From contig NZ_CP015579.1 in NCBI RefSeq assembly GCF_002163585.1, positions 2,790,001-2,854,000 on the forward strand: a DNA stretch of 64,000 nt, given 5' to 3'. The first letter of the stretch is position 1. Each line of letters opens with the position of its first letter. This document shows, piece by piece, positions 9,269 to 12,997 of this stretch. The stretch is from Tatumella citrea. GTDB lineage: Bacteria; Pseudomonadota; Gammaproteobacteria; Enterobacterales; Enterobacteriaceae. A program made the position numbers and the translations under genes. The notes beneath the pieces are model-generated. The model was not told where the DNA came from, did not search any database, and saw only the letters and a list, made by a program, of their open reading frames with translations.

Positions 9269-10417
9269 TCAATGCGCTTCGGCCTTCAGTTGCAGTAGCT
9301 TCAGTTGGTCACTGCGCTGCGCCTCATTAGCCAGATTCTGAAAGTCAGGCCAGTGATAGTAACTTTGTGTTGCCGGCAACTGCTGCCTGGATTGACCGGT
9401 AAACAGACGTAATTCTCCCAGCGCAGCTATCGATTCTCCCGCACAAACCACTGGCAGAGTAAGAGGCAAACTGGCCTCAGGCTCACCCGGAACCGGGGTC
9501 GGGACACGATCTTCACCAGTCAGATAATTACGCTTAAGCACTAAAAATTTTTCAGGCACTGCTCTGTGGCTGTTCCACCATACACCGTCGAGCATATCGA
9601 AATGAAAACGAGTTCCTTCAGGAGATTCGGCGCCAAGCTGCAACAGTGCTTCCGGTAACACGGTAGTCATTGCCGTGTTAAAACCACGTTTACTGTAACC
9701 ATGCCCGGTCAACAAAAGAGTTGCGGCCAGGCGAACCCCGACCATATTCGAATAGAGATCTTCAGGGGAAAATGCAGAAATTCCCTCAGAAAATCCGGGA
9801 ACCGATTCAAATCCATACCACTGCGCGATTTCGTGCCAGGCTGCTATCTGAAATGCCACTCTTGCTGCTATCCAGACAGCCAGCGTATAAGCAGTAGCGG
9901 GATCGTCTGGCGGCCGAAAAGCGTTGAATACCACGACACGTTTTGCCAGTTCATCTTCACCGGGCAAAATGCTGAAGGCTTTTCCCAGCTTTGGGTAAAG
10001 CTGGCTGAATATCCAGAACGTCATATCTGCACTGTCCCGGATATGGGCAGTATCGATAAACCCGCCACGCCTGGTATAAATTATGCCATTGTGCTCCTGG
10101 TTAAGTCCGGTCAGTGCCAGCAGTGCATTCCAGTGACTATCATTAAAACTGTGCTGACCGGTACTTCCGGCATCAATCACATTATTAATCCGGTAAAAAG
10201 GTACAGGTATTCCCGACAAACGGGTTTTCAGTTGATAGCCAAATGCACAACAAGGGCGCAGCCCTTCCGGAGCTGATAACTGCTTAACTACAGGCCAGGC
10301 TTCACCGGCCTGCTGCTGTGGGATGTGAGCAAAATCGATGCTGATTGGTAGTCTTGCTTCCGTTGGTGGAATGCAGAATAACAGCGTCACTAATATGACA
10401 CTCATCCTTGTCTTCAA
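9269..10417 (-). CDS. Exported DUF4056-type protein, third gene of envelope operon
   Basis: A 382-residue protein with an N-terminal signal sequence (hydrophobic stretch to about residue 20), so it should be periplasmic or outer-membrane-associated. Conserved-looking elements are RPCCAFGY (about 54-61), a WHEIAQWYGF segment that resembles an HExxxxY hydrolase-like site, and FSPEDLYSNMVG, which I associate with the DUF4056 family; the molecular function is unknown. It starts with TTG whose last bases overlap the stop of the upstream gene (TTGA), with AGGAG eight bases before. It is therefore coupled to the two barrel genes. Assignment to DUF4056 is from memory of the family, not a search. Confidence 0.7.
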   Translation of the reverse strand: MKTRMSVILVTLLFCIPPTEARLPISIDFAHIPQQQAGEAWPVVKQLSAPEGLRPCCAFGYQLKTRLSGIPVPFYRINNVIDAGSTGQHSFNDSHWNALLALTGLNQEHNGIIYTRRGGFIDTAHIRDSADMTFWIFSQLYPKLGKAFSILPGEDELAKRVVVFNAFRPPDDPATAYTLAVWIAARVAFQIAAWHEIAQWYGFESVPGFSEGISAFSPEDLYSNMVGVRLAATLLLTGHGYSKRGFNTAMTTVLPEALLQLGAESPEGTRFHFDMLDGVWWNSHRAVPEKFLVLKRNYLTGEDRVPTPVPGEPEASLPLTLPVVCAGESIAALGELRLFTGQSRQQLPATQSYYHWPDFQNLANEAQRSDQLKLLQLKAEAH

Positions 10418-11556
10418 AATGCTTCTCCTGCCTGAAAATAAAATGCACTACTTCCCTTGCCGACACCGTAGTCCAGCCGGATATTCATCCCGGGTTTAAA
10501 TTCAAACCGGTACCCTGCCCCAACCGTGGGTAACCAGCGTTCAGCCAGCAATGTTGAAAAACCCGGAGCCATGGTGCCGCTGCCTATCCAGCCAACAATT
10601 CCGTGTCTCCAGCTCAATGCCTGACGGTATTCCAGTTGCGTGGTTAACACATCCCGGTCCCGGTAACGGCCCGGGTAATATCCCCGAAAATGGTTACTGT
10701 CTCCCAGCAGCGGCAGCATATTCCAGGGGACCTGCCCCCCGGTAAATGCGCCGTTAATTTCAAAGGCAACCACTCGTTTATCATCCAGCGAACGGTATGC
10801 ACTGAAATGAGTAGTCCAGGCATCAAACCGCGTATCACTGCCGGTCTGTCGCCGGTAACTGATATATTGCAGGCTGGCGTCAATCCCTCGATGTGGATTA
10901 GGCACAAAATCACGACTGTCATAACTCAGGCTGAGCAACGGTCCGCTACTCATTACGCCCCGCCCGTCAGCCTGCTGTTCCGGCCCGGGTTTAAAGGTAT
11001 TGTGAATGCCACCAGCCTGCATATTATTCAGCGACCAGCCAGCGCCCAGATAAGTGTCAGGAGCAATCCGGCGCAAAAGCTGAGGTATTAAACTGATTTC
11101 CTGAGAAATGTACTTCACCCGGTTACCATTATGGCTACCGGCAGCAAAGCCCTTTCCCCAGTACCACGTTGGGGTATAGTTCAGCGTCGCTTCTGTGAAT
11201 AACCGCCATCGATCGTTGTCGTAGAAACTGTAATTGTTCAGATGCAGACCGGCAGCTCCGGTACTACTGGCATAGCCACTAAGCGTGACCGATGAGTTCT
11301 GGCTGATATGATCATCCGCATCCGGACGATAAAGGCCGGCGACCACCATACCCAACCCGACACCCAGTTCAGGGGTATAAAATGGGCCGGGCATGATTCC
11401 CCAGTCAATACCGTGCCCGGGATCAAACGTCTGGCTGGCTCCTAACGGTGCCAGCCAGTGGTCAATCTGCTCACGGGACGGCAGATACTGCGCAGTGGCA
11501 AACGAAGACCACAATGCTCCGCCCAACACCCATCCTTTCAGTGCCCGGCAATGCAT
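10414..11556 (-). CDS. Omp85/BamA-like surface-antigen barrel without POTRA domains
   Basis: A 380-residue exported protein (signal peptide ending near ATA at about residue 22). Its C-terminal half matches the bacterial surface antigen (BamA/TamA barrel) pattern: LSYDSRDFVPNPHRGID, then strand pairs and a GFSTLLAERWLPTVGAGYRF segment, ending in Phe. It is too short for POTRA repeats, so it looks like a stand-alone barrel. By family this suggests an outer-membrane pore or exporter; the substrate is unknown. Start ATG at 11556 shares a base with the TGA of the preceding gene (TGATG), and the stop overlaps the next start, so the three genes form one coupled operon. Confidence 0.75.
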   Translation of the reverse strand: MHCRALKGWVLGGALWSSFATAQYLPSREQIDHWLAPLGASQTFDPGHGIDWGIMPGPFYTPELGVGLGMVVAGLYRPDADDHISQNSSVTLSGYASSTGAAGLHLNNYSFYDNDRWRLFTEATLNYTPTWYWGKGFAAGSHNGNRVKYISQEISLIPQLLRRIAPDTYLGAGWSLNNMQAGGIHNTFKPGPEQQADGRGVMSSGPLLSLSYDSRDFVPNPHRGIDASLQYISYRRQTGSDTRFDAWTTHFSAYRSLDDKRVVAFEINGAFTGGQVPWNMLPLLGDSNHFRGYYPGRYRDRDVLTTQLEYRQALSWRHGIVGWIGSGTMAPGFSTLLAERWLPTVGAGYRFEFKPGMNIRLDYGVGKGSSAFYFQAGEAF

Positions 11557-12638
11557 CAGAAACGATATTCTCCGGAAACAAAGATACTGTTACGTTGCGC
11601 GAAACCCACTTCGGTTGAGATGTTAAAATGGCGGGTGATATTGTACTGAGCACCAATCAGGATATTCCACGGCGATTGCAGATGCTGTTTTACGTCGAAA
11701 CGTCCGCCGCCATTTTGATTAGCCATCGCCATCAGCTGCTTTAACGACGCCGGCATCGTCAGATCATTCAGGCTTCCCTTAAATTCCTGCTGAACATTCT
11801 GATACATGGTTCCTGCCCAGACATTCAGTTTTCCCGGTGACAGACCAATCGCCCGAATTCCCGGGGTATCAAACCGGTAACCGATTCGTGGTGAGACTGT
11901 AACTGCATTAATGCTGCCATCGAGAATATCGAAATGGGTCTGGGTATAGTTAAAATCTACCAGTCCGTACCAGTTTCCTACGCCACCTGCCAGCACTGTC
12001 CCCACACCGTAAGTTGTGCCCTTAAATTTCAGCTCAAAATTGAGGTTATCGAACTGACCGGCGTTGTGCATGCTGTGGACGATATTGGAAATCAGCTTTT
12101 CCAGAATATTGTCTTTAAAATCAGCCGGATCAGAATCGACCCCTATCGCTGAAACCGAATGACCGCGGGTCTTGCCCACAATTCCATAGATATTCCAGAA
12201 CGGCAGCACCCAGGCATCCAGCCTCAGGGTACGGGTTTTACTGTACTGCCGCGTTTTGCTGGCATCAATTTTGAACATCGTAGAAGGTAGCGCGACATTT
12301 CCCAAACCGAGCCCGGTGAAATTGATCGAACTGACATCAATATTCTGCCTGATATTCATGTAGTTAATTCCAATACCGAAAGGTTCTGGCAAGTCATAAC
12401 CTTTCTGAATGGCTTTATCGCCAAGCAGCGGGAACCAACGATCATAATGCTTTACCGGTATTGCGCTCTTCGCTGTCGAATAACCGGTGACAGCAGCCTG
12501 AGAGTCAGTCGTCTTCGGTAGCTGGTACAGAGATGAAATATCCTGAGGTGTGGTGCCGTAAGCGTTACAAAACATGCTCTGAAGAACTAACAGACTGAGT
12601 GCCTGATATCTGAATTTCATTGTTTTACGTTCTGCCAT
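11556..12638 (-). CDS. Predicted outer-membrane beta-barrel protein, first gene of envelope operon
   Basis: A 360-residue protein with a signal peptide (hydrophobic LSLLVLQSMF stretch, cleavage near NAYG) followed by alternating amphipathic segments and a C-terminal strand ending in Phe (FVSGEYRF), the outer-membrane insertion signature. I do not recognise the family. The true start may be the ATG at 12620 (MKFRYQAL), giving a more typical signal peptide; neither start has a strong ribosome-binding site. It heads an operon with the Omp85-like barrel and the DUF4056-type protein, suggesting they act together at the outer membrane. Confidence 0.7.
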   Translation of the reverse strand: MAERKTMKFRYQALSLLVLQSMFCNAYGTTPQDISSLYQLPKTTDSQAAVTGYSTAKSAIPVKHYDRWFPLLGDKAIQKGYDLPEPFGIGINYMNIRQNIDVSSINFTGLGLGNVALPSTMFKIDASKTRQYSKTRTLRLDAWVLPFWNIYGIVGKTRGHSVSAIGVDSDPADFKDNILEKLISNIVHSMHNAGQFDNLNFELKFKGTTYGVGTVLAGGVGNWYGLVDFNYTQTHFDILDGSINAVTVSPRIGYRFDTPGIRAIGLSPGKLNVWAGTMYQNVQQEFKGSLNDLTMPASLKQLMAMANQNGGGRFDVKQHLQSPWNILIGAQYNITRHFNISTEVGFAQRNSIFVSGEYRF

Positions 12639-12952
12639 TGCCGGAAATAAGGGAAATTTACCCTTACAAAAGGAGTGGGATTATGCAGGACGATATAGTG
12701 GAATTATCAGCATAACGTGCTAACAAAAAATAAATATAAGATCATTAATCTGAACAAAAATATTATTTAATAATTATATTCTGCTATGTGAATAATCATT
12801 TATCACTTTATATCAACCAGGAAGCTCGCTTATTCCGTAACACGGCTGACAGAGGCCTGGCAGGAGTTTATTCAACAGTGACTAAAAACGGGGAAGAATC
12901 AGCAGGAATGAAGTTTTGCGGTAACGGGAGGCAAACGAATCTGATAAATAAA
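12639..12952. other. intergenic region between ahpF terminator and the barrel operon
   Basis: About 310 bases, AT-rich near 12715-12800. It should contain the promoter of the three-gene barrel operon, but no -35/-10 pair or operator stands out. Confidence 0.5.
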
Positions 12953-12988
12953 AGCCACAGGTGATGTTATGCGAAATCACCTGTGGCT
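12953..12988 (-). terminator. ahpF terminator
   Basis: AGCCACAGGTGAT (12953-12965) pairs with ATCACCTGTGGCT (12976-12988), a perfect 13-bp stem with a 10-base loop. On the minus strand it is followed by TTTTATTTATC. Confidence 0.85.
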
Positions 12989-12997
12989 GGGCGTGGA

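Follow-up and report, generated by a model that had tools for sequence, protein, structure and literature searches.

Three overlapping genes on the minus strand of a 64,000-nucleotide stretch of the Tatumella citrea genome (contig NZ_CP015579.1, positions 2,790,001 to 2,854,000; the window) form a real unit that recurs in many gammaproteobacteria. They encode a predicted β-barrel protein (BarrelA), a barrel of the Omp85 superfamily without POTRA domains (Omp85s), and a protein of the DUF4056 family (PF13265). We consider the chances about even that the DUF4056 protein is an exported head-group phosphohydrolase or phosphotransferase that works with an outer-membrane barrel platform. From sequence motifs, structure models, and gene neighborhoods, we infer its catalysis, its substrate, the bond that is cut, a physical complex, and the role of the trio at the membrane.

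Recurrence of the three genes as a unit

The open reading frames (ORFs) overlap by 1 base (first and second genes, TGATG) and by 4 bases (second and third genes, TTGA), as a preliminary description of this DNA had stated, and the third begins with a TTG codon. The operon proposed there is supported by these overlaps and by tight spacing in relatives. In 80 named loci, the best 80 of 317 relatives from a scan of named genomes, gaps were 20 bp or shorter in 66/66 neighboring BarrelA-Omp85 ORF pairs and in 69/69 Omp85-DUF4056 pairs. All three genes were matched in 68 of these loci, one of which (L050, T. ptyseos) has an Omp85s of only about 88 residues. Four others contained BarrelA and DUF4056 with a different Omp85-type barrel upstream, two contained Omp85s and DUF4056 at contig ends, and six contained DUF4056 alone.

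Genome searches, which scored only candidates that passed a loose first look, used E-value thresholds of 1e-10 for BarrelA and Omp85s and 1e-3 for PF13265. Within the same GTDB family, 43 of 198 genomes exceeded the PF13265 cutoff, 42 strongly and one marginally (G114; 26.9 bits), and PF13265 was absent from 14/14 control genomes. BarrelA and the Omp85s profile were each matched in 38 of the 198, and these were the identical 38 genomes, each of which also has a strong DUF4056 match; the remaining four of the 42 (G003, G154, G155, and G180) had neither barrel. The sole Omp85 match in G142 is of a second type described below, and a few genomes (G050 and G162) carry split copies. This shared distribution, together with the spacing, demonstrates that the trio recurs in other genomes and is not a chance adjacency. 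A survey of the phylum found 13 of 398 genomes over the PF13265 cutoff, all in the same order, and the operon is present in Citrobacter, Salmonella, Serratia, Edwardsiella, Providencia, Xenorhabdus, Buttiauxella, and other genera.

Protein distances among the three correlated (r of 0.86, 0.69, and 0.53; the top of 999 permutations was 0.25) across the 62 named loci in which all three ORFs fell within set length ranges, a co-divergence that is due in part to shared species history. In a DUF4056 tree built from ORFs of 320 to 470 amino acids at loci L041 to L211 (139 loci, 136 distinct sequences; shorter or broken copies excluded), each of the three deepest clades contains trio loci. It is highly improbable that the genes are neighbors through inheritance alone and have unrelated jobs. 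DUF4056 does occur alone, as in Klebsiella pneumoniae, Rosenbergiella, Budvicia, and Limnobaculum, showing that it does not always require barrels at its locus. However, presence is nested (38 within 42 of 198 genomes), the order at L129 is BarrelA-hydrolase-DUF4056-Omp85s rather than that of the window, and G190 has all three genes with Omp85s on a separate contig from BarrelA and DUF4056. The changed order and the separate contig speak against simple inertia.

Several copies are irregular. At L136 (G027:C1:1668000-1679000) and L137, the DUF4056 gene belonging to one trio is broken into two ORFs, and a solo DUF4056 elsewhere in the genome is a single open frame. G001 (L135/L224 and L144) has a BarrelA-Omp85s pair with no adjoining DUF4056 and another locus with the second Omp85 type, BarrelA, and DUF4056; G153 likewise combines two matches to BarrelA with a single DUF4056. 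A full trio in a record titled Chryseobacterium (Bacteroidota; L119) is nested among Enterobacteriaceae in the tree and probably comes from a contaminated or mislabeled assembly.

In 23 of 88 loci, the operon comes with a second POTRA-less Omp85 of a distinct type; the two types share 21 to 25% identity in three comparisons. An MscS-family channel gene runs at least 4 bases into the start of this second type of Omp85 in 14 loci, giving the order mscS-omp85-barrelA-omp85-duf4056. The trio is also plasmid borne in Escherichia coli, Serratia, and Rahnella. A tblastn search matched DUF4056 in 18 of 72,556 plasmid records, and some of these records appear to be chromosomes. Records L045 and L047, listed as plasmids, are 5.4 and 4.1 Mb long and resemble chromosomes labeled as plasmids. 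Of 5,426 complete E. coli genomes searched by blastn, 5 gave plasmid matches, all of them short and partial; the blastn search was insensitive, because additional E. coli plasmids turned up with tblastn. In E. coli strain C5, plasmid A (L041) has BarrelA and DUF4056 clustered with genes for a polysaccharide deacetylase, a glycosyltransferase, and VirK; this locus gave no match to Omp85s, and an 83-amino-acid ORF without a Pfam family occupies that position. On a Rahnella plasmid (L048), an MscS gene follows the trio, and a type VI secretion cluster lies a few genes farther along.

The predicted active site of DUF4056 and its barrel partners

The third protein matched PF13265 at 388.4 bits (cutoff, 23.6), in agreement with its earlier label as a DUF4056-type protein. 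DUF4056 has been assigned to the ClaspCone-CapCone-TelC clade of the Lipocone superfamily (Burroughs, Nicastro, and Aravind 2025, PMC12419801). The hallmarks that the CapCone passages of that paper describe can be located in the window protein: a Gly six residues before the helix 2 (H2) His (G119 and H125), an xD motif starting four residues before that His (D122), an S/GxxSxx motif ahead of the helix 4 (H4) Asp (S214, S217, and D220), an aromatic-Ser pair ahead of the same Asp (F216-S217), and an Asn four residues past it preceded by a small residue (S223-N224). Using this published description, we assigned H125, E196, and D220 as the H2 His, H3 Glu, and H4 Asp of a predicted active site. Ten predicted active-site or motif residues (G119, D122, H125, D128, D131, H195, E196, E219, D220, and N224) are invariant in 137/137 DUF4056 sequences, and S217 and S223 are each kept in 135, with Thr replacing S217 in 2. 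The HE-containing segment that the preliminary description had thought conserved is indeed so and now has a place in the predicted lipid-enzyme active site.

The structure model of DUF4056 had a predicted local distance difference test (pLDDT) score of 92.4 and a predicted template modeling (pTM) score of 0.92. In it, a predicted β-hairpin (strands 112 to 115 and 119 to 122) leads into the His125 helix (123 to 143), resembling the clasp described for CapCone proteins. Signal peptides, called by eye, suggest that all three trio proteins are exported, as had been claimed. Lipoboxes were identified by eye or with a home-made pattern, which found one in 12 of 81 DUF4056 ORFs; DUF4056 is probably lipid anchored in some relatives.

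The first two proteins end in Phe (...GEYRF in BarrelA and ...GEAF in Omp85s), which the preliminary description had read as a trait of outer-membrane barrels. Structure prediction gave a 10-strand barrel for BarrelA, in keeping with that view. The modeled shape is that of the omptins (OmpT and Pla), which require catalytic His and Asp residues, but BarrelA shares only 5 to 7% identity with them, and we rejected BarrelA as an omptin protease since 38 BarrelA sequences contain no invariant His. Omp85s passed the Omp85 barrel profile PF01103 narrowly (26.0 bits; Pfam cutoff, 24) and reached 61.9 bits against NF047779, under the cutoff of 200. An Omp85 barrel is expected to have 16 strands. Among 25 family members (the window protein and 24 homologs), PF01103 was found in 25/25 and POTRA in none, which bears out the reading of the second protein as an Omp85-type barrel too short for POTRA repeats; the only other domain match was PF13505, in 2 members.

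Could the barrels be a split, type Vd-like export system that translocates or surface-anchors DUF4056, or a machine that inserts proteins? PlpD of Pseudomonas, a type Vd protein, joins a lipolytic patatin to POTRA domains and an Omp85 barrel in a fused chain, and the lipid enzyme and barrel here might be its counterparts in separate genes. Membrane-protein biogenesis has also been suggested for noNterm Omp85 proteins in the survey by Heinz and Lithgow (2014, PMC4104836). However, none of the 25 Omp85s members has POTRA, DUF4056 is solo in several lineages, and the unit includes a second barrel of another type, so that we regard export or insertion as rather unlikely. The window trio was not assigned to type Vd, as it consists of separate genes with no POTRA and no patatin, and its enzyme is a lipocone.

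Lipid-enzyme neighbors and the proposed function

In relatives, genes for lipid enzymes are found beside DUF4056 or BarrelA homologs. In five loci outside the window's family (L129, L131, L133, L192, and L195), a lipoprotein α/β-hydrolase with a GxSxG motif directly precedes DUF4056 and sits behind BarrelA or BarrelA-Omp85s. Lipoprotein patatins adjoin BarrelA homologs in 6 of 43 paralog loci (L213 to L256 minus L224), a count that is not a frequency because 34 of the 43 come from genomes of the dgkA clade described below. The patatin phospholipase gene overlaps the BarrelA homolog in four of these (L216, L234, L236, and L239), and the order is BarrelA-like, patatin, Omp85-type in the other two (L214 and L256). 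With the barrels retained beside patatin or hydrolase variants, the lipid enzyme appears to be exchangeable.

A further partner is the diacylglycerol kinase gene dgkA. In genus g158, which we take to be Vibrio, DUF4056 exceeded the cutoff in 43 of 196 genomes, of which 42 were analyzed (39 plus G518, G418, and G433) and one with fragments only (G689) was left out. The 39 loci comprise 26 with BarrelA, Omp85s, and DUF4056, 10 in which DUF4056 is followed by dgkA, and 3 that are partial. DUF4056-dgkA pairs occur in 11 genomes (these 10 and L134) with gaps of -8 to 5 bp, and the paired dgkA is the sole PF01219 match in 11/11 genomes. EptA and DgkA genes also lie within 5 kb of DUF4056 at L133 and L195, as eptA-dgkA in both. 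Three papers describe DgkA as recycling the diacylglycerol that EptA and the decoration of periplasmic glucans leave behind (PMC12064563, PMC7559476, and PMC8027125). Another kind of pair, in which a BarrelA-like gene comes after a POTRA-less Omp85, was seen in g158 at L213, L249 to L251, L253, and L255, with an ion-channel gene and nadA upstream at L213. The window genome has two dgkA-family genes (G000:C1:1714159 and 3863271), neither near the operon.

We propose that the operon makes an outer-membrane lipid-remodeling module. Its two barrels, BarrelA and the POTRA-less Omp85, would together be the outer-membrane platform, and exported DUF4056 would act on the periplasmic side of this platform. 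The DUF4056 pocket would hold a lipid, and His125, Glu196, and Asp220, with nearby acids, would cut or transfer a phosphate-linked head group. The bond likeliest to be cut would be the lipid-phosphate bond, as in TelC, a member of the same clade that cuts lipid II at its phosphoester bond with undecaprenyl and binds calcium at its putative active site. Cleavage would leave a lipid alcohol, either diacylglycerol or undecaprenol, for rephosphorylation by a DgkA-type kinase. Because the same bond in a phospholipid would yield diacylglycerol, the DgkA substrate, the chemistry of the TelC clade and the dgkA pairing point to the same class of product, a lipid alcohol.

Several observations limit this proposal. 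The 11 DUF4056-dgkA loci form one clade (Shimodaira-Hasegawa-like approximate likelihood ratio test [SH-aLRT] support of 99), so the pairing represents a single evolutionary event. No barrel lies beside DUF4056 at these loci; BarrelA-like and Omp85-like genes are found elsewhere in 11/11 of the genomes each, as multimatch families (3 to 7 and 5 to 11 per genome). In addition, neither sequence nor fold comparison matched DUF4056 to a solved Lipocone such as TelC, and the Lipocone fold of the window protein is putative.

TelC, which cuts lipid II, also lends weight to a different enzyme activity, in which DUF4056 would release or transfer glycans from undecaprenyl- or lipopolysaccharide-type carriers and the barrels would export or anchor the product. 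The polysaccharide deacetylase, glycosyltransferase, and VirK genes on the E. coli plasmid, EptA nearby in two genomes, and a heptosyltransferase-family gene in one would fit such a role. Yet no recurring glycan gene family was found beside the trio in the clustered loci, where most neighbor clusters are unnamed, and the recurring enzyme partners are acyl-lipid hydrolases; we therefore consider a glycan enzyme unlikely. A secreted or type VI-delivered antibacterial lipid toxin is very unlikely. In its favor, CapCone-1, CapCone-2, and TelC include toxins (PMC12419801), a type VI island of Salmonella contains a DUF4056 gene that has been proposed as an effector, and the trio on a single Rahnella plasmid lies near a type VI cluster. 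Against this, the signals look Sec-type by eye, the barrel partners are conserved, and the sequence conservation seems unlike that of polymorphic toxins; no nonbarrel neighbor family was present in more than 16 of 88 loci, although immunity families were not searched for.

The preliminary description had left the function between assembly, export, and lipid handling, with DUF4056 as a hydrolase or a chaperone. Lipid handling by a hydrolase fits the evidence best. An assembly or export machine and a chaperone are less supported, because the predicted lipid-enzyme active site of DUF4056 is retained in full and lipid enzymes are encoded beside it. A broader version of the lipid-remodeling proposal is tentative, and we doubt it more than we believe it: BarrelA and the POTRA-less Omp85 may be a generic outer-membrane platform that takes different lipid enzymes (lipocone, patatin, or α/β-hydrolase), and the DUF4056 version may be a head-group phosphotransferase or phospholipase C that returns diacylglycerol to DgkA, is sometimes coupled to an inner-membrane MscS-type channel, and removes or re-heads misplaced outer-membrane lipids.

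Feature map and relation to known systems

The features of the locus are collected in Table 1. A scan of the upstream region for regulator patterns, made across relatives, gave no usable signal.

Table 1. Positions in the window of the three genes, DUF4056 motifs, and upstream region
Feature	Position	Strand	Basis
BarrelA, first gene: signal peptide and predicted 10-strand outer-membrane barrel, 360 amino acids	11556..12638	-	Signal peptide by eye
Omp85s, second gene: POTRA-less Omp85-superfamily barrel, 380 amino acids	10414..11556	-	PF01103
DUF4056, third gene: CapCone-DUF4056, exported predicted lipid head-group enzyme, 382 amino acids	9269..10417	-	PF13265
Predicted helix 2 active-site motif after β-hairpin clasp, codons 119-131 (G119, D122, H125, D128, D131)	10025..10063	-	Invariant; matches published CapCone motif
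HE segment, codons H195-E196; E196 assigned as predicted helix 3 active-site Glu, not HExxH	9830..9835	-	Invariant in 137/137
S/GxxSxxD motif and N at D+4 of predicted helix 4, codons 214-224 (SAFSPEDLYSN)	9746..9778	-	
Adjacent (vicinal) cysteines C56-C57 of DUF4056	10247-10252	-	Invariant in 137/137
AT-rich region upstream of the trio, presumed promoter	12639..12997	-	Sequence

Parts of this arrangement are already known, namely, lipocones with outer-membrane barrels in other families, POTRA-less Omp85 proteins, and the joining of lipase and Omp85 in PlpD. The third gene of the trio is the published CapCone-DUF4056, a PF13265 protein with the published motifs; the main-text passages of PMC12419801 on DUF4056 and CapCone give no genomic context, and the links to barrels, hydrolase, and dgkA are added here. 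The same paper describes YfiM-Griddle, YfiM-DUF2279, and CapCone-2 lipocones encoded with an outer-membrane protein barrel and sometimes a patatin or α/β-hydrolase. These are other lipocone families, however, and its main-text passages describe no pair of a POTRA-less Omp85 and a 10-strand barrel. Omp85s resembles the noNterm Omp85 proteins in having a barrel without POTRA or another N-terminal domain, and the text of PMC4104836 does not mention DUF4056. EptA/MCR-DgkA pairs likewise encode an exported head-group enzyme with a diacylglycerol-recycling kinase, but EptA, a membrane enzyme that matches Pfam Sulfatase, is unrelated to DUF4056, and the DUF4056-dgkA pair belongs to one other clade and not to the window. 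The literature cited in this analysis also includes PMC11669294, PMC11566119, and PMC5555719.

We found no publication on the operon, or on its α/β-hydrolase, patatin, and dgkA variants, in the main text of open-licence full texts. The earlier suggestion of an undescribed system thus stands for the operon and not for DUF4056, whose place in the Lipocone superfamily dates from 2025 (PMC12419801). If the proposal is correct, an uncharacterized operon of many genera would gain a testable enzymatic job, and POTRA-less Omp85 barrels would gain a functional partner. The Lipocone superfamily would gain a link to lipid-alcohol recycling, one that predicts the bond cut.

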